DNA of 64,000 nucleotides from Tenacibaculum sp. 190130A14a. Lineage in GTDB: Bacteria; Bacteroidota; Bacteroidia; Flavobacteriales; Flavobacteriaceae. The stretch covers positions 186,001 to 250,000 of the forward strand of contig NZ_OZ040189.1 of assembly GCF_964048965.1 (NCBI RefSeq), read 5' to 3'. Positions 5,906 through 61,478 of this stretch are shown here, piece by piece; position 1 is the first letter of the stretch, and the number at the start of each line of letters is the position of its first letter. The notes beneath the pieces are model-generated. The model made no database searches, was not told where the DNA came from, and was given only the letters and a program-made list of their open reading frames with translations. The translations under genes and the position numbers were made by a program.

Positions 5906-6010
5906 GTATATGATATTAAAAGTATAGATGTCAAAGCAGTTTGGAATGCAAAAGAGGGTAGATTTGTACAAGGTAATAAAGGATTACAAGAATTAAATTT
6001 AATAGAATAA
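5906..6010 (+). pseudogene. C-terminal gene fragment before the immunity gene (possible toxin remnant)
   Basis: Thirty-four sense codons end in a TAA that overlaps the ATG of the SUKH gene (TAATG), the normal coupling of a toxin tip with its immunity gene. The peptide (VWNAKEGRFVQGNKGLQEL near its end) looks like a genuine protein C-terminus. No start codon precedes it in frame except that of the 41-codon gene, from which it is separated by one TAA. I infer that it is the 3' end of a toxin gene whose front was replaced or lost. A domain assignment is not possible from 34 residues. Confidence 0.45.
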
Positions 6011-6492
6011 TGGAAATAAAATATTTAGAGAAATTAGTTGAAAATTCTACTATTGGAAAATCAACGATTAGAGGGGTTTCAGAAAAAGAAATAGATAAAA
6101 TAGAGGAAAAGTATGGTATAAAATTTCCTCAAGCTTATAGAGAGTTTTTGTTTTTAGCAGGAGATTATTGTGGTGCTTTACCATTATATGATACAGCAGA
6201 TTTAAAAACAATAGGATCGGACTGGCACCAAGAAATCATGAAAGAAACAATGGAGGAGTTTGGAACAGAAATAGAAAAACCTTTTTGGTTATATGCTGAA
6301 AGTAATGGGTGTGAGCAGTTTGTTTTTTTCTATTTAGATGAAGGAGATGATCCATATATTTATGTTGTAGATTATGACCATAATAGCAATTATGAAAAAC
6401 AAAAAATAGTTAAATCTGAATATACTTTTAGTAAAGGGATAGAAGGAGCTATAAAACAAGCTTATGATATTGTTGAAAAAGGTCTTTGGTAA
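6010..6492 (+). CDS. SMI1/KNR4 (SUKH) family immunity protein
   Basis: The 160-residue product has the SUKH pattern: a helical start with VSEKEIDKIEEKYGIKFPQAYREFLFLAG (split: ISEKEI...FPQAYREFL), a central Trp-containing strand region, and an acidic stretch YLDEGDDPYIYVVDYD. SUKH proteins bind and neutralise C-terminal toxin domains of polymorphic toxins. The start overlaps the stop of the preceding fragment by one base. A terminator follows at once, so it ends this accessory block. No intact toxin gene is seen next to it, so it appears to be an orphan immunity gene. Confidence 0.8.
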   Translation: MEIKYLEKLVENSTIGKSTIRGVSEKEIDKIEEKYGIKFPQAYREFLFLAGDYCGALPLYDTADLKTIGSDWHQEIMKETMEEFGTEIEKPFWLYAESNGCEQFVFFYLDEGDDPYIYVVDYDHNSNYEKQKIVKSEYTFSKGIEGAIKQAYDIVEKGLW

Positions 6493-6677: not shown

Positions 6678-7526
6678 ATGGCGGTACAAGATATTATTTC
6701 CTATACCTATAAAGATATTTTTAGTTTGCAAACAGTACAGTTTGAAAAAGCTTGTGTGGTAAATGAACCGGAACAAATGCAACAACTAAAAATTATATGG
6801 ATAAAAGAAGGAAAAGGTACTTATAACATCGACTTTAAAACCTACTCTTTTTCAAATGGAGTGTTGTTTTTTTTATCACCAGGACAAGTGTTTTCTGTAG
6901 AATCTGAAAAGATAAAAGAAGCCTATCAACTAAGTTTTCATAAAGATTTCTATTGTATTCAAAATCATGATGCTGAAATTTCTTGTAATGGAGTGTTGTT
7001 TAACAATGTATATGAAACACCCCTAATAAAACCCGAAGAAGCAGATGTTGTTAAGTTAGATATGATTATTGATAATATGATTGAAGAATTTCAACAAAAA
7101 GAAGCTGCTCAATATGACATGTTACAAGCCTATTTAAAACAATTTATTATTTCAGCAGTTCGAATTAGAAAAGAGCATGATGTTGTAAAAGATGATACAG
7201 AAACCAAATTATTCAAAGATTTTAGCATACTCGTAGAGCAAAACTTTAAAAAACTACACAGCGTAACAGATTATGCAAATAGATTAGGTATTTCGCCAAA
7301 ATCACTTACCAAACATTTTCAAAAGATAGGTGTACAAACACCAAGCGACTTTATTAAAAACAGAATTATTACTGAAGCCAAAAGACAGCTGTTATATTCT
7401 TCAGAAGCTGTAAAACATATCGCTTTCGACTTAGGGTTTAATGACCCAGCATATTTTTCAAGATTCTTTACTAAAACTACAGGAAAGTCTCCAAAACAAT
7501 TTCAAAAAGAAAAAACCACGCTGTAA
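6678..7526 (+). CDS. AraC-family transcriptional regulator (282 aa)
   Basis: Residues 1 to about 160 form a cupin-like sensing domain (GKGTYNIDFKTYSFSNG, then LSPGQVFSV). The C-terminal about 100 residues form the double helix-turn-helix of AraC proteins (DYANRLGISPKSLTKHFQK, then VKHIAFDLGFNDPAYFSRFF, then TGKSPKQF). It probably acts in the cytoplasm on the downstream operon at 8086-9157, whose promoter carries a 21-base-spaced direct repeat. The last codons overlap a hairpin (7516-7537) that has T runs on both strands and can terminate this gene and an antisense RNA. The ATG at 6678 is the only reasonable start. Confidence 0.9.
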   Translation: MAVQDIISYTYKDIFSLQTVQFEKACVVNEPEQMQQLKIIWIKEGKGTYNIDFKTYSFSNGVLFFLSPGQVFSVESEKIKEAYQLSFHKDFYCIQNHDAEISCNGVLFNNVYETPLIKPEEADVVKLDMIIDNMIEEFQQKEAAQYDMLQAYLKQFIISAVRIRKEHDVVKDDTETKLFKDFSILVEQNFKKLHSVTDYANRLGISPKSLTKHFQKIGVQTPSDFIKNRIITEAKRQLLYSSEAVKHIAFDLGFNDPAYFSRFFTKTTGKSPKQFQKEKTTL

Positions 7527-7576
7527 TACACACGTGGATTTTTTGGGGATTAATGAAATAAGGGGAATAAAAAATG
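7509..7576 (-). ncRNA. Candidate small RNA, array member 1 (degenerate)
   Basis: On the minus strand a TACTTTTG box (7582-7589) precedes about 68 bases that contain two CCCC motifs (7562-7565 and 7545-7548) and end in a CCACG/CGTGG hairpin (7516-7537) followed by a T run. The layout is that of the two better copies at 7631 and 7815, but the -33 TTG is not present at the expected place and the palindrome is reduced to a TTAACAT half. The 3' end is antisense to the last codons of the AraC gene. RNA boundaries are estimated from promoter and terminator positions. Confidence 0.45.
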
Positions 7577-7581
7577 TTTCG

Positions 7582-7611
7582 CAAAAGTAAATTGCATTTT
7601 AATTTTTAATG
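7582..7611 (-). promoter_or_regulatory. Weak promoter of candidate small RNA 1
   Basis: TACTTTTG reads on the minus strand at 7589-7582. No TTG is found 19 bases upstream (CAT instead), so this promoter is weaker than the two others or decayed. Confidence 0.4.
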
Positions 7612-7630
7612 TTAAGAAAAGATTAAGAAA

Positions 7631-7716
7631 TAAAAAAACTCGCAACTTTGGGGGCTACGAGTCGTAAGGGGTTTACATTAGGGGAATGTATAGAGGGGAT
7701 CTATTATTCATATTTA
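7631..7716 (-). ncRNA. Candidate small RNA, array member 2
   Basis: A minus-strand RNA of about 86 bases is predicted from a TATCTTTG box at 7729-7722 to a terminator (ACTCG 7658-7662 with CGAGT partner at 7638-7642, T run to 7632). It carries runs of C at 7695-7698, 7681-7684, 7668-7671 and, in the terminator loop, 7650-7654. The upstream -33 TTG (7751-7749) is exactly 19 bases away. It aligns over about 130 bases with the copy at 7815-7950. Spacings between the C runs differ by 3, 1 and 1 bases from that copy, so reading frames are not kept, which argues for RNA and not protein. Confidence 0.65.
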
Positions 7717-7721
7717 CACTA

Positions 7722-7765
7722 CAAAGATATAAGGTTTTTACAATCAACCAATTAACATAGGTTAA
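7722..7765 (-). promoter_or_regulatory. Promoter plus palindromic operator of candidate small RNA 2
   Basis: Reading on the minus strand: TTAACCTATGTTAA (7765-7752, imperfect palindrome), TTG (7751-7749), 19 bases, TATCTTTG (7729-7722). This matches the Bacteroidetes primary sigma pattern TTG-N19-TAnnTTTG. Confidence 0.65.
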
Positions 7766-7814
7766 TAAATGTGTTTTTAGAAAAAAAACAGGATAAACAC
7801 TGTAAGATAAAGCA

Positions 7815-7901
7815 CAAAAAAAACTCGTAATACTTGGGGTACACGAGTTTAAGGGGTTTACTATTATAGGGGAAATATATAGAGGGGAATCTATATATAG
7901 A
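7815..7901 (-). ncRNA. Candidate small RNA, array member 3
   Basis: A minus-strand RNA of about 87 bases is predicted from a TATATTTG box at 7914-7907 to a strong terminator with an 8-base perfect stem (AAACTCGT at 7850-7843 with ACGAGTTT at 7828-7821 in minus-strand sense) and an eight-base U run. Four CCCC motifs lie at 7884-7887, 7869-7872, 7853-7856 and in the terminator loop at 7836-7839, spaced 15-17 bases. The -33 TTG and a perfect 14-base palindrome lie upstream. Unpaired C-rich motifs are a known seed type in small regulatory RNAs of other phyla; targets here are unknown. No RNA family name can be given from sequence alone. Confidence 0.7.
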
Positions 7902-7906
7902 TGCAA

Positions 7907-7950
7907 CAAATATACATGAGATTTACAATTAAGCAATTAACATATGTTAA
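7907..7950 (-). promoter_or_regulatory. Promoter plus perfect palindrome of candidate small RNA 3
   Basis: Reading on the minus strand: TTAACATATGTTAA (7950-7937), TTG (7936-7934), 19 bases, TATATTTG (7914-7907). The palindrome abuts the -33 element, so a dimeric regulator bound there would touch RNA polymerase. Confidence 0.7.
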
Positions 7951-7976
7951 TAAATGAAAAATATGTAAAATAAATG

Positions 7977-8004
7977 TTGTCCAAGTATAAGGAACTTTTG
8001 TCCA
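7977..8004 (+). promoter_or_regulatory. Direct repeat, likely AraC-family binding site
   Basis: TTGTCCA occurs at 7977-7983 and again at 7998-8004, exactly 21 bases apart, that is two turns of the helix on the same face. It lies upstream of the -7 box of the 8086-9157 operon and downstream of an AraC-family gene. AraC proteins typically bind such direct repeats next to the promoter they activate. The link to this particular regulator is inference. Confidence 0.6.
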
Positions 8005-8027
8005 TTTTTTGAGGTGTATTCTCGTCG

Positions 8028-8035
8028 CATCTTTG
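8028..8035 (+). promoter_or_regulatory. -7 element of the CPxC/AhpD-like operon
   Basis: CATCTTTG fits TAnnTTTG with one change. A poor -33 element agrees with a promoter that needs an activator. Confidence 0.5.
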
Positions 8036-8085
8036 TATCAGAAATTTTAACCAAGGATTATTTGGTTAACAAAAAAAGAAGAAAG

Positions 8086-8181
8086 ATGAAAGAACAAATA
8101 AACATTCAATGCCCTAACTGTTGGGGATACCAAGAATACGATGAGCAATTCTCAGATAGAGAATTATGTAACTGTAAATAA
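8086..8181 (+). CDS. 31-residue four-cysteine (CPNC...CNC) protein
   Basis: A short gene with a clear purine-rich leader (AAAAAAAGAAGAAAG) encodes 31 residues with CPNCWGYQEYD near the start and CNCK at the end. Two Cys pairs in this arrangement suggest a small zinc-binding ribbon. It is the first gene of the operon; the next gene starts 25 bases after its stop. I have the impression that CP-x-CWG-x-QEY proteins recur in Flavobacteriia next to AhpD-like genes, but cannot verify this. Function unknown. Confidence 0.65.
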   Translation: MKEQINIQCPNCWGYQEYDEQFSDRELCNCK

Positions 8182-8206
8182 TAATAACCTAAAAAAATCT
8201 ATAAAA

Positions 8207-8764
8207 ATGAGTACAAGAATTCAAACATTAAATCCAGAAACAACTACAGGAGCGTCAAAAGAATTATTTGATGCAGTACAAGGTAAATTAGGATTCATTC
8301 CTAACTTAATTAAGGTAATGGGAAATTCTCCAGCTTTATTAAAAACATATTTGACTTTAGGAGAGTTAAATGGAGAAGGAAACTTTTCTAATAAGTTTAG
8401 AGAGCAATTGGCCTTGGCTATTGCAGAAGAAAATACATGTAACTACTGTTTATCTGCCCATACAGCCATAGGAAAAATGAATGGTTTAACTGAAGCAGAA
8501 ACTGTTGAAAATAGAAAAGGATTGTCTTCAGATGCAAAAGTACAAGCAGCACTAAACTTTGCACAACTTGTTACTAAGAATAGAGGAAATGTTACTTCTG
8601 ATCAAATTGCTGAGGTAAAAGCGGCAGGATATAATGATGAAGATATTTTAGAAATCTTATTAAATGTTGTAGTAAACACATTAACAAATTACGTAAATCA
8701 CATAGCAGAAACTGAAGTTGATTTTCCAAAAGTAGAAGCAGGAAAGTTTTCAGTGGAAGCATAA
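8207..8764 (+). CDS. Carboxymuconolactone decarboxylase / AhpD-like family protein (185 aa)
   Basis: The product has the AhpD core motif EENTCNYCLSAHTAIG with the redox CxxC and following His, within an all-helical protein of usual family length. Members reduce peroxides or handle reactive electrophiles in the cytoplasm; the substrate here is unknown. The frame is open from 8141, but that part overlaps the 31-residue gene. The ATG at 8207 follows an AAAAATCTATAAAA leader and gives the usual start STRIQTLNPE, so I take it. It is in an operon with the small Cys protein before and a cupredoxin-like protein after (30 bases), all probably under the AraC regulator. Confidence 0.88.
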   Translation: MSTRIQTLNPETTTGASKELFDAVQGKLGFIPNLIKVMGNSPALLKTYLTLGELNGEGNFSNKFREQLALAIAEENTCNYCLSAHTAIGKMNGLTEAETVENRKGLSSDAKVQAALNFAQLVTKNRGNVTSDQIAEVKAAGYNDEDILEILLNVVVNTLTNYVNHIAETEVDFPKVEAGKFSVEA

Positions 8765-10636: not shown

Positions 10637-11209
10637 CTATTTGATAAGTTTTCGAATTCTACTCATATGTCTTGTGGAAATTCCTAAAAAAGAAGCCAAA
10701 TAATGTAACGGAACTGTTTGTAATAATTCAGGTTCTGTTGTAAGTAATTTTTGATAACGCTCTTCTGGAGACAATGTAAGTAAGTCAATTCTATAATCAT
10801 CAATTAGAAAAATCTGATTTTCAATCAAATTGAAATAAAATTGATGGAAAGCTTTGTTGCTTTTTAAAAGCTCTTTAAAATCTGTTACGGAAATAACCCA
10901 GAGTGTACATTCGCTTAAAGCTTTGATGTTTTTGCGAGAAGGCTTTTTGTGTAAGAAGCTTTGCAGGGCTGAGGTACAGGTGTTTTTTAAACCGAGATAG
11001 GTGGTTTTCTCTTCACCAGAAATTTCTATGGAATGTTGAAGGATACCACTTTCTATAAAGCAAAAGTATTTACATACATTACCTTCTTTTACGAAATATT
11101 CATTTTTACCAAGAGTTATTGATTTAAAGCAAGAAACGATTTCAGGAATGAACTCGTTTAAAGAATTTTCTTTGATAACAAGTTGTAAGTATGTTTGCAA
11201 AGGTGTCAC
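10637..11209 (-). CDS. Crp/Fnr-family regulator, cyclic-nucleotide-binding domain
   Basis: The 190-residue product has a cNMP-binding beta-roll (residues about 20-115; LGKNEYFVKEGNVCKYFCFIESG split over two strands) followed by a C-terminal winged helix with LASFLGISTRHMSRIRK. The family is common in Bacteroidetes as short Crp-like regulators; the effector is unknown since the nucleotide-binding Arg/Glu motif is not conserved in a clear form. It lies alone on the minus strand. Confidence 0.85.
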   Translation of the reverse strand: MTPLQTYLQLVIKENSLNEFIPEIVSCFKSITLGKNEYFVKEGNVCKYFCFIESGILQHSIEISGEEKTTYLGLKNTCTSALQSFLHKKPSRKNIKALSECTLWVISVTDFKELLKSNKAFHQFYFNLIENQIFLIDDYRIDLLTLSPEERYQKLLTTEPELLQTVPLHYLASFLGISTRHMSRIRKLIK

Positions 11210-32950: not shown

Positions 32951-33856
32951 ATGAACAAAGAAGCTAAAAGATATTATTATGGCTTAATCATCTTTTTGCT
33001 TTTTTTAATCGGAGCTATAGGTATTTTGTCTTATCAAAATGCACGTGACTATTCTCGATTAAAAGGAGTATTTGATGAAGAAAAAAAAGAGCTGGAGAAG
33101 AGTCTAGGAAATGTAATTGAAGATTATGAAAGCGCATTGACTAGTAATAGACACTTGTCCTATAAAATTAATGAAGAATTAGAAAAACTAATTCTTTTAA
33201 GAGATTCTGTAAGTAATCTAAAAGAAACCAATTATGGTTTGATGAAGCACTTCAGAAACAGAATCTATGAATTAGAAAAAACAAATAAGGAGTTATTTGT
33301 ACAAATAGATTCGTTATACGCTGAGAATAATGTTCTTAATGAGGAGAATTTAGGTGTTAAGAAAATTCTAAACGAAAAAGAAAACCAAAACAGTTTATTA
33401 AAAAGAAAAAACAGATATTTAAGAGCAACTAAAGAAGATTTAGAAAAGAAGATTGCTTCTGCAGTAGTTATTGAAACTACTCCAATAAAAGCTGAAGCAA
33501 TGAAGAAAAAGAATAGTGGCAGGCATGTGTCTACAAGTAGGTCTTATAGAACAGACGCTTTTAGAATATCTTTTGATTTATTAGAGAATAAAATAGTTGA
33601 TCCAGGACTTGTTCCTGTATTTGTTCAAGTGTTAGATGAAAATAATACCATTATTTCTAAAAAAGGTAAAACAGCAGTAAAAGGTGGTAAGAAGGTGCCT
33701 TACAGTGATGCTTTTTTAGCAGAATACCATAATAAAGAAATAAATGTTATATCTTTCATATCTGTAGAAAGAGAAATGATTAAGAAAGGAGTATATACTA
33801 TTAAAGTTTTTGTAAATGAAATGTACTCTGGAGAAACAAAATTAAAGTTGAAATAA
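32951..33856 (+). CDS. Membrane-anchored coiled-coil protein, paralogue 1 (301 aa)
   Basis: A transmembrane helix (residues about 9-27) is followed by about 130 residues of heptad-rich coiled coil (LKGVFDEEKKELEKSL to EDLEKKIASA) and a C-terminal beta domain from about residue 170 (SYRTDAFRISFDLLENKI, then VFVQVLDENNTII). The next gene has the same architecture and alignable sequence. Such proteins are sometimes labelled chromosome partitioning protein in Bacteroidetes, without support in the sequence. Probably extracytoplasmic; function unknown. Confidence 0.8.
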   Translation: MNKEAKRYYYGLIIFLLFLIGAIGILSYQNARDYSRLKGVFDEEKKELEKSLGNVIEDYESALTSNRHLSYKINEELEKLILLRDSVSNLKETNYGLMKHFRNRIYELEKTNKELFVQIDSLYAENNVLNEENLGVKKILNEKENQNSLLKRKNRYLRATKEDLEKKIASAVVIETTPIKAEAMKKKNSGRHVSTSRSYRTDAFRISFDLLENKIVDPGLVPVFVQVLDENNTIISKKGKTAVKGGKKVPYSDAFLAEYHNKEINVISFISVEREMIKKGVYTIKVFVNEMYSGETKLKLK

Positions 33857-60854: not shown

Positions 60855-61077
60855 TATCTTTTGAAAGGTTTGTTACTTGTACAATTACCGAAAGCATAGC
60901 TCCGAAAACGGCTACAAGTGTACAAATTTTTGTGTAAAGTTGATCGTCGTTTGGAAATTTTTGATCTAACCATTCACCTAGTAAACTTCCTAAGTAAATG
61001 GTTAAACCCATTTGAAGTGCGATTCCACTGAATCGGATAAATTTATTAAGCGGTCTTTTCTTTTCGCTTTTCTTCAT
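60847..61077 (-). CDS. atpZ: AtpZ/AtpI-family protein (76 aa)
   Basis: A basic N-terminus and two transmembrane helices (SGIALQMGLTIYLGSLLGEWLDQKF and YTKICTLVAVFGAMLSVIVQV) are typical for the short AtpZ/AtpI proteins at the head of F-ATPase operons, which help c-ring assembly or magnesium supply. Its start overlaps the end of the bactofilin gene by 32 bases. Confidence 0.85.
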   Translation of the reverse strand: MKKSEKKRPLNKFIRFSGIALQMGLTIYLGSLLGEWLDQKFPNDDQLYTKICTLVAVFGAMLSVIVQVTNLSKDND

Positions 61078-61456
61078 CTTTGTTTAATTCTTTCACAGCA
61101 CCTTTCATAGAACATGTTGCGTTAAAACTTGCTCCTGGTTCTACTGATAATTTTCCAATAATAACGTCTCCGTTAATATTTGCAGATGATTTAACTGTTA
61201 AGGTATTAGTAACCATTAATTCACCAGAGAATTTACCTTCAACATCAGCATTGGTACATTCTACTTTACCTTTAATTAAACCGGTTTGACCTACGATTAC
61301 TCTTCCTTCTGTTTTAATAGTACCTTCTAATGTACCATCAATTCTAAAATCTCCTTCAGAGATAATATCACCAGTAATAGTAGTGTTTTGTCCGATGATG
61401 TTTCTTTCTGATACTTTTTTTTCTCCTGAAGATTTTTTACTGTCTTTACTAAACAT
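61046..61456 (-). CDS. Bactofilin (polymer-forming cytoskeletal protein)
   Basis: The 136-residue product has a central beta-helix (residues about 20-115) with repeats such as NTTITGDIISEGDFRIDGTLEGTIKTEGRVIVG and LIKGKVECTNADVEGKFSGEL, between disordered, Lys-rich ends. Bactofilins form filaments linked to membrane and cell wall. It lies between sprE and atpZ, an order I believe is kept in many Flavobacteriia. Confidence 0.92.
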   Translation of the reverse strand: MFSKDSKKSSGEKKVSERNIIGQNTTITGDIISEGDFRIDGTLEGTIKTEGRVIVGQTGLIKGKVECTNADVEGKFSGELMVTNTLTVKSSANINGDVIIGKLSVEPGASFNATCSMKGAVKELNKDEEKRKEKTA

Positions 61457-61478
61457 GGTTATGGGGAAATTTATTTTT

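Follow-up and report, generated by a model that had tools for sequence, protein, structure and literature searches.

The window analysed here, 64,000 nucleotides (nt) of Tenacibaculum sp. 190130A14a (positions 186,001 to 250,000 of contig NZ_OZ040189.1), carries three short C-rich units in a row on its minus strand, which raises the question of what such units encode, which protein controls them and on what they act. An earlier note, made from the letters alone, had taken them for paralogous regulatory small RNAs (sRNAs) under one palindrome-reading protein, and sequence comparison supports this proposal by unlinked copies in the same genome, a fixed spacing between operator and promoter, compensatory hairpins and terminators found genus-wide. 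The three units belong to an apparently undescribed family of predicted small regulatory RNAs of marine Flavobacteriaceae. The reader of the palindrome is likely a Crp/Fnr-family protein, which presumably acts as an activator.

Two genes flank the array, an araC-type gene that converges on it and one of the AhpD-like kind, and its three minus-strand units were confirmed on inspection of both strands of 6800-8700, a box of the form TAnnTTTG, runs of four C (C4) and a terminal T run being located in each. In copy 3 the operator TTAACATATGTTAA (7937..7950, on the minus strand like all features of the array) is centred at about -41.5, and the -7 box TATATTTG (7907..7914) begins 22 nt past it. The predicted sRNA of 87 nt (7816..7902, with the T-run end at 7816) has four C4 runs (7884-7887, 7869-7872, 7853-7856 and 7836-7839), and its predicted order is a hairpin with a UUCCCC loop, two C4 runs in linkers and a terminator hairpin with C4 in the loop. 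Copy 2 is built of the operator TTAACCTATGTTAA (7752..7765), the -7 box TATCTTTG (7722..7729) and a predicted sRNA of 86 nt followed by a terminator (7632..7717, T-run end 7632), with four runs of at least four C (7695-7698, 7681-7684, 7668-7671 and 7650-7654). Copy 1, a short paralogue whose operator has decayed, has the degenerate operator TAATCTTTTCTTAA (7612..7625) at the expected distance, the -7 box TACTTTTG (7582..7589) and a predicted sRNA of 68 nt (7510..7577, T-run end 7510) with two C4 runs (7562-7565 and 7545-7548). The terminator of this copy and the araC-type gene overlap at the 3' end of the latter. The palindromes that had been claimed for copies 2 and 3, and the count of two to four CCCC motifs per copy, agree with these positions.

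The runs are more clustered than in dinucleotide shuffles. Read on the plus strand, 7509-7950 contains 10 runs of four G, against a mean of 3.45 and a maximum of 7 in 1000 dinucleotide shuffles, and all other 442-base stretches of the window have at most three such runs and at most three C4 runs each. The three RNAs fold better than their shuffles (z of -3.25, -3.87 and -5.62). A hairpin followed by a T run had been read in every copy; a strict terminator scan flags copy 2 alone, and in copies 1 and 3 the hairpin and T run are visible in the folds. Protein coding by an 87-residue minus-strand frame starting with TTG, which runs across copies 2 and 3, was rejected, as the frame is not kept and the unit lengths vary freely.

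Further copies are found elsewhere in the genome. The loose palindrome TTAACNNNNGTTAA occurs there at 20 places per strand, against 23 for a reversed control, so it shows no excess. Inspection of sites of the form TTAAC(A/C)TATGTTAA led to a complete unlinked unit at 144752 (L007), whose terminator loop resembles that of copy 2, and to a unit at 2854379 (L010) directly 3' of a Crp/Fnr-family gene; the palindromes at L008, L009 and L011 were judged to be chance sites with respect to an sRNA. The covariance model R1, built on copies 2 and 3 and the unit at 144752, finds a further unit at 3262563 (E 3.7e-6) and the one at 2854379 (E 0.035). Copies 2 and 3 included, the genome thus has five units of one layout: a TTAAC-N4-GTTAA palindrome, about 22 nt, a TAnnTTTG box, a short C-rich and G-poor RNA and a terminator. 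Five sites of the genome match the full pattern with at most one mismatch, and four of them are sRNA units, the fifth being L162.

The covariance search that the earlier note had suggested also gives multiple matches across the genus. R1 matches 11 of 58 genus genomes, this one counted, and around the AhpD-like gene it finds 16 units in 10 of 79 loci, all 10 from Tenacibaculum. The broader model R2, made from 25 sequences and used at E <= 0.05, matches 41 of 116 genus genomes (38 of 84 among the good ones) and retrieves copy 1 at E = 0.018. On 72 genus loci it gives 96 matches, weak ones included, of which 87 are distinct by sequence. A Crp/Fnr gene directly precedes 32 of these units, 25 lie in the neighbourhood of araC-ahpD and 20 in that of a metallophosphoesterase gene, and the other 10 have different locations. 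The longest tandem array has four units (L221). When the RNA end is set at the first T5 run after 40 nt, predicted lengths range from 46 to 126 nt with a median of 85, and this variation, with no kept frame, argues against a protein, as had been proposed from the array itself. An sRNA gene with its own promoter, a non-coding conserved body and an intrinsic terminator is what these units are predicted to be.

The spacing between operator and box is nearly fixed. Among the 87 units, the box starts 36 bases from the operator start in 59, 37 in 12 and 35 in one, and the exact box is not found at the expected distance in 15. Activators of the Crp/Fnr family that act from the class II position are centred at -41.5. 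Because the box was placed at -12 to -5, the promoter box position given for Flavobacterium psychrophilum (PMC9723704), the operator comes to lie at -48 to -35 with its centre at -41.5. By this borrowed box position the predicted operator centre would coincide with the class II site. Units found by a model are biased towards the positions of the model, so the spacing was also examined by a fixed pattern and at loci chosen by protein. In 249 family genomes the pattern TTAACN4GTTAA-N22-TAnnTTTG has 42 sites, spread over 36 genomes, and the reversed control has 3; of the 42, 29 are new loci, with a Crp/Fnr homologue ending just upstream in 26 of these 29. Pattern loci L210, L213 and L214 appear to be chance sites, and at L198 and L199 the Crp match is weak and no sRNA is evident. 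The TTG located 19 bases before the box by the earlier note is real in copies 2 and 3; it is kept in just 6 of 59 units, and a conserved -33 element was rejected.

The regulator gene of this genome (G000:C1:2853800-2854372) adjoins the sRNA copy at 2854379. Its protein matches PF00027 (E 2.4e-11), and the best PDB match, 3dn7, covers residues 28-187 of 191 and reaches into the helix-turn-helix, whose recognition helix IASYLNITPVQLSR was identified by eye and by script, Pfam naming no helix-turn-helix family. The protein has a domain of the cyclic nucleotide monophosphate (cNMP)-binding type and a C-terminal helix-turn-helix, and so belongs to the Crp/Fnr family. At 29 loci chosen by similarity to this protein alone, the gene end was readable in 28, and in 27 of the 28 the palindrome (at most one mismatch) lies from 4 bases before to 11 bases after the regulator stop codon. 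In those 27 loci the box follows the palindrome by exactly 22 nt in 22 and by 28 nt in one, and is absent in four. Of the 29 genus genomes that have a regulator homologue at E <= 1e-50, 25 contain R2 matches, against 16 of the remaining 87 (Fisher p 7e-11, with a cut-off set afterwards and relatedness not corrected). In the four genomes with a regulator and no R2 match (G011, G016, G025 and G040), the predicted RNA of each has a C5 run. Gene adjacency and shared occurrence, together with the helix residues given below, suggest this protein as the reader, which would bind the operator directly and presumably activate rather than repress.

The residues that would contact DNA change along with the palindromes in some paralogues. 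By our own alignment to CRP, which gives the residue numbers 180 and 181 used here, the position of CRP residue 181 is V in sRNA-linked regulators at 25 of 28 script-readable loci (from a total of 46), or 23 of 26 without duplicates, and one further sRNA-linked regulator has V181 followed by a stop. Loci L270 and L217 of genome G020 have an in-frame stop in the recognition helix of the regulator, and the adjoining operator and sRNA look intact. The genome studied here has 14 regulator paralogues including the query. Three others have palindromes of their own, TTGACAATTGTCAA, TCAACAAATGTTGA and TTAAGATATCTTAA, and in each case exactly 22 nt separate the palindrome from the box of the gene that follows; one has a CRP-like TGTGA-N6-TCACA downstream without a box at that distance; in the remaining paralogues of this genome no such arrangement was seen, or it is less clear. 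Paralogue loci with their own palindrome are L247, L248, L249 and L254, around 1338580, 1396690, 588565 and 1770850. The pair R180/E181 goes with the CRP-like site and P180/E181 with a TTGAC site, in agreement with the Crp/Fnr specificity code of Rodionov and colleagues (PMC1274295). Two more P180/E181 paralogues (L250 and L253) show no TTGAC-N4-GTCAA, so the code fits some paralogues and not all. Because the residues vary in step with the palindromes in part of the paralogues, prediction of sites for such local regulators looks feasible. Another Crp/Fnr-type gene (cNMP_binding) is present in the window at 10637-11209 on the minus strand, directly before an aminopeptidase P gene, and its helix is unlike the sRNA-linked type.

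NssR of Campylobacter jejuni, also a Crp/Fnr-family protein, recognizes a motif of the TTAAC-N4-GTTAA form, given as TTAACnnnnGTTAA; it differs in activating a globin gene under nitrosative stress and in having the specificity residues A180/Q181 (PMC1274295), while the regulator described here has P180/V181 by our alignment. Nitrosative stress as the inducing signal is, by this analogy, only a lead. HcpR-SnoA-hcp of Bacteroides thetaiotaomicron likewise has a non-coding RNA beside a Crp-family regulator gene in Bacteroidota, but SnoA is described as antisense to the hcp promoter and its level as independent of HcpR (PMC13370916); here the operator is on the sRNA promoter and the sRNA is multicopy. 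The units of this family are also dispersed and tandem, up to the four in a row mentioned above, as a decaying DNA repeat (a mobile element or one resembling repetitive extragenic palindromes) that merely carries a promoter and a terminator would be. Such a repeat is very improbable: the operator-box spacing is kept, the stems are compensatory, several species have units next to homologous genes, and in other genera a sister form stands beside Crp/Fnr genes.

The RNA bodies are C-rich and G-poor, with zero to five runs of at least three C per unit, most often two or four. The 109 runs of four or more C in 59 units have the consensus (U/A)CCCCUWA. In 45 non-redundant RNAs, each with two or more C runs, the fold upstream of the terminator is better than that of shuffles that preserve the runs, with a median z of -2.3 and 35 of the 45 RNAs below -1. 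When the right arms around C4 runs were exchanged between RNAs in 300 swaps, the own arms folded better than the swapped ones. This was so for first runs (n=36, -2.65 kcal/mol against -0.88 +/- 0.19), second runs (n=27, -2.68 against -0.98) and later runs (n=12, -3.59 against -1.88), some of the runs lying inside terminator hairpins, and 0 of 300 swaps reached the own value in any of the three classes. Without terminator hairpins the first runs (n=29) give -2.88 against -0.99, again 0 of 300. The stems therefore co-vary while the loop stays CCCC, most clearly in the first hairpin.

On what such loops act was examined in gene leaders, in a sample of 864 kb of the genome (the window and 40 stretches, 22 percent of the genome) with 426 open reading frames (ORFs) that follow a gap of 60 or more and have sufficient flank. 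C-rich seeds acting on G-rich sites near starts had been suggested, and this part of the earlier note was not supported at the called starts examined. GGGG is rare at called starts (5 runs in -35..0, with 2.3 expected, and 4 in the first 35 coding bases). The motif conserved in the leaders of two genes is CCCC itself. In -35..0, CCCC was seen 15 times against 4.5 expected. Ranked by excess over base composition, it comes second of the 256 tetramers there, and first when tetramers with fewer than 10 counts are set aside; in -40..0 it is third. CCCT is likewise over-represented in leaders. Two CCCC before ATG show no excess over the control in the 864 kb (5 vs 9).

The two genes with a conserved leader motif encode a lipocalin-like protein and a bactofilin. 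The lipocalin-like gene, labelled by weak Pfam matches below the cut-off, was reached via palindrome locus L009 and picked for its striking leader, little more than two C4 runs, before its orthologues were inspected. Across 58 genomes, C4 is kept in -30..-1 in 9 of 9 orthologues, whose proteins are 36-67 percent identical and whose right-aligned leaders have a mean identity of 0.41. Own leader included, eight of ten have two C4 runs, one has CCC and CCCC and one has a single run. The bactofilin gene (61049-61456, minus strand) has a CCCC element (61463..61466, minus strand) 6 nt before its start codon, kept in 4 of 4 relatives compared, which makes it a candidate site of the sRNA motif on the messenger RNA (mRNA) side. 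Where the own leader lacks C4, 0 of 85 gene-relative pairs have it, the closest relative being left out. In this orthologue leader test GGGG likewise persisted in 4 of 4 pairs, a result that was discounted because the window's sole GGGG leader is that of the ORF called at 8141 and is an upstream small frame. Both genes carry the same CCCCUWA-type motif as the sRNAs and not its complement, and a motif shared in this way points to a common reader of C4. Two adjoining similar ORFs of about 300 residues, at 32951 and 33902 of the window (plus strand), have C5 runs in both leaders, kept in the close relative G089, the sole relative with a match.

A general initiation feature, such as a ribosome contact, which would have arisen in parallel in real sRNA transcripts and in leaders, would fit the spread of leader C4 over bactofilin, lipocalin-like and unrelated ORFs and the excess of CCCT. 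We consider it improbable, since just 9 of the 430 leaders sampled have C4 in -30..-1, a number too small for a signal used in initiation generally.

Another possibility, which we hold to be real though doubtful, is that the same regulon works by antisense pairing, with CCCC loops that bind GGGG in mRNAs and block their translation or alter their decay. The C-rich and G-poor bodies would suit such pairing, and so would two precedents. LhrC1-5 of Listeria monocytogenes are multicopy RNAs with several C-rich (UCCC) motifs in loops and linker, under one regulatory system, LisRK, and they block translation by pairing (PMC4132741). The multicopy layout with redundant C-rich motifs is shared with the RNAs described here, which differ in the rarity of G-rich sites at called starts, in the presumed Crp/Fnr-type regulator and in having no Rfam family match. 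FopS/GibS of B. thetaiotaomicron are paralogous Bacteroidota sRNAs (14 copies) with canonical Bacteroidetes promoters and a terminator, are linked to the RNA-binding protein RbpB, a further likeness, and act through base pairing; the parts of that report used here describe a conserved single-stranded 5' seed and name no common operator (PMC11697453), where the present RNAs have C4-loop hairpins and a predicted operator at -41.5. Besides the scarcity of GGGG at starts, two points stand against pairing: F. psychrophilum is described as lacking Shine-Dalgarno sites, so that the usual G-rich target is missing (PMC9723704), and the conserved leader motif is C4, which is unable to pair with C4.

The explanation that we prefer is a Crp/Fnr-driven sRNA regulon that works by titration of a C4-binding factor, with a probability of about 0.48. 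The Crp/Fnr activator encoded at 2853800-2854372 would bind TTAAC-N4-GTTAA centred at about -41.5 and switch on dispersed sRNAs of about 55-100 nt, namely copies 2 and 3 and the units at 144752, 3262563 and 2854379; copy 1 may respond weakly. In most of these RNAs several CCCC(U) runs would be left unpaired, in linkers as well as hairpin loops, and an intrinsic terminator would form the end. A factor that recognizes CCCCUWA in short mRNA leaders, just before the start codon, would be captured by the sRNA loops, and its capture would change translation of those mRNAs.

CsrB, RsmY and RsmZ are RNAs that titrate a protein by a short motif repeated in their hairpin loops, the same motif being present in target leaders near the start codon. 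A Csr-like post-transcriptional switch in Bacteroidota, with CCCC in place of GGA, in which sRNAs activated by a Crp/Fnr-family sensor soak up a C4-reading protein or a ribosome-associated factor, is put forward tentatively. With the same reserve, the factor may otherwise bind one or two C4 elements in leaders, including those of the lipocalin-like envelope protein and bactofilin. The differences from Csr/Rsm are that the motif is CCCC (CCCCUWA), not GGA, and that a few motifs are present in each of several small RNAs; as to the leaders, the motif is kept in two genes (10 of 10 sequences, own one included, and 4 of 4 relatives), and the genome-wide excess is weak.

Several observations weigh against titration. 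The share of C runs that fall in hairpin loops exceeds that in shuffles which keep the runs by only a modest margin (35 of 101 vs 25.3 +/- 3.6, max 33), and later runs without terminator hairpins give a weaker arm-swap result (n=14, -1.74 vs -0.68, 3 of 300). Leader C4 is just about 1.5-fold above intergenic DNA further upstream (15 vs 10.2 per 40 nt). Anywhere in the 864 kb, CCCC precedes ATG no more often than it precedes GTA (332 vs 360), while GGGG followed by ATG within 25 nt exceeds GGGG-GTA (409 vs 327, not limited to gene starts), which also favours pairing. The ATG and GTA counts and the arm-swap test without terminators lowered our odds of titration slightly. Titration rests on two genes, the lipocalin-like one and bactofilin. 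The C4-reading partner protein is postulated and none was identified, no search for CsrA or another RNA-binding protein having been made, and transcription of the regulon and binding to the operator are predictions from sequence. Outside the genus the sister RNAs are mostly without C4, and their own motif is at most weakly echoed in the leaders of one genome, where a CTAACC-type motif is at most weakly enriched (G327). Of the three mechanisms we favour titration, followed by LhrC-like pairing and then by a general leader feature.

Among R2 loci outside the genus, 12 of 14 carry a Crp/Fnr gene; the family matches L151 (a tRNA) and L153 (without a Crp/Fnr gene) are false or doubtful. Most of the RNAs inspected there have a different body, often a hairpin of the UUUCC/AAGGA type followed by UAGCUAACCAACC or a variant and then a terminator, and the C4 body is found in Tenacibaculum and partly in one other genus (L148 and L158). 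The sister sRNA of other Flavobacteriaceae genera (L192-L220), which has UAGCUAACCAACC and an A-rich stretch before its terminator, stands behind the same type of regulator, and those of its loci that were compared with Rfam gave no match. Operator, regulator and sRNA thus appear to travel together in many Flavobacteriaceae genera, with a differing RNA body. In the order, the pattern stays close to background: 12 of 246 genomes have sites, 15 in total, and the control has 6; 4 of the 15 were already counted in G000 and G020. The module is present at L326, of the same genus, and at L332 and L335, of another family, a hairpin-like RNA accompanies a Crp/Fnr gene.

The comparison with Rfam, also suggested before, was made and gave no family above the gathering score at the sRNAs. 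Rfam 15 on the whole window finds a tRNA alone above that score; on 7300-8300 at E <= 5 it gives two chance-level matches to unrelated families; on 20 related loci it gives a DUF805b element alone, away from the sRNA, and on 16 loci at E <= 0.05 nothing, the presence of FopS, LhrC and FnrS models in the copy used not having been checked. The DUF805b cis-regulatory element lies at L146:567-605 (minus strand) and is unrelated to the sRNA. In the open-licence literature nothing was found on this sRNA family, which does not show its absence from print. FnrS of enterobacteria has an sRNA promoter controlled by a Crp/Fnr-family activator; the sRNAs described here differ in having no Rfam match and several copies, one of which adjoins the regulator gene. 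Rfp18 of F. psychrophilum, also a conserved structured flavobacterial sRNA, is described by a pairing third stem-loop and by protease targets (PMC9723704); compared by description alone, it may be identical with the sister form. By analogy, the nearest relatives seem to be LhrC in layout, FopS in phylum, Csr/Rsm in the proposed logic and FnrS and HcpR-SnoA in the type of regulator.

Both neighbours of the array serve as synteny markers. The convergent AraC-family regulator gene (6678..7526, plus strand) adjoins units in other Tenacibaculum too, and a SUKH/SMI1-KNR4-type protein, resembling an immunity protein, is encoded beside it (6010-6492, plus strand). The AhpD-like carboxymuconolactone decarboxylase ORF (8141..8764, plus strand) forms the other flank and probably has its true start at 8207; directly 5' of this gene, a tiny cysteine-containing ORF (8087-8179, plus strand) overlaps the called start.

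Few sRNA systems are understood in Bacteroidota, where Shine-Dalgarno initiation is largely missing, so that the customary rules on the targets of sRNAs do not transfer. The present comparison predicts an entire regulon, with its regulator, operator and RNA and two conserved leader elements, and this prediction is testable in a large marine group. The CCCC loops common to the sRNAs and to some gene leaders hint at a new control of protein production, and the same arrangement of regulator and sRNA with a different RNA body in other genera would offer a natural series for the change of an sRNA motif under one operator.

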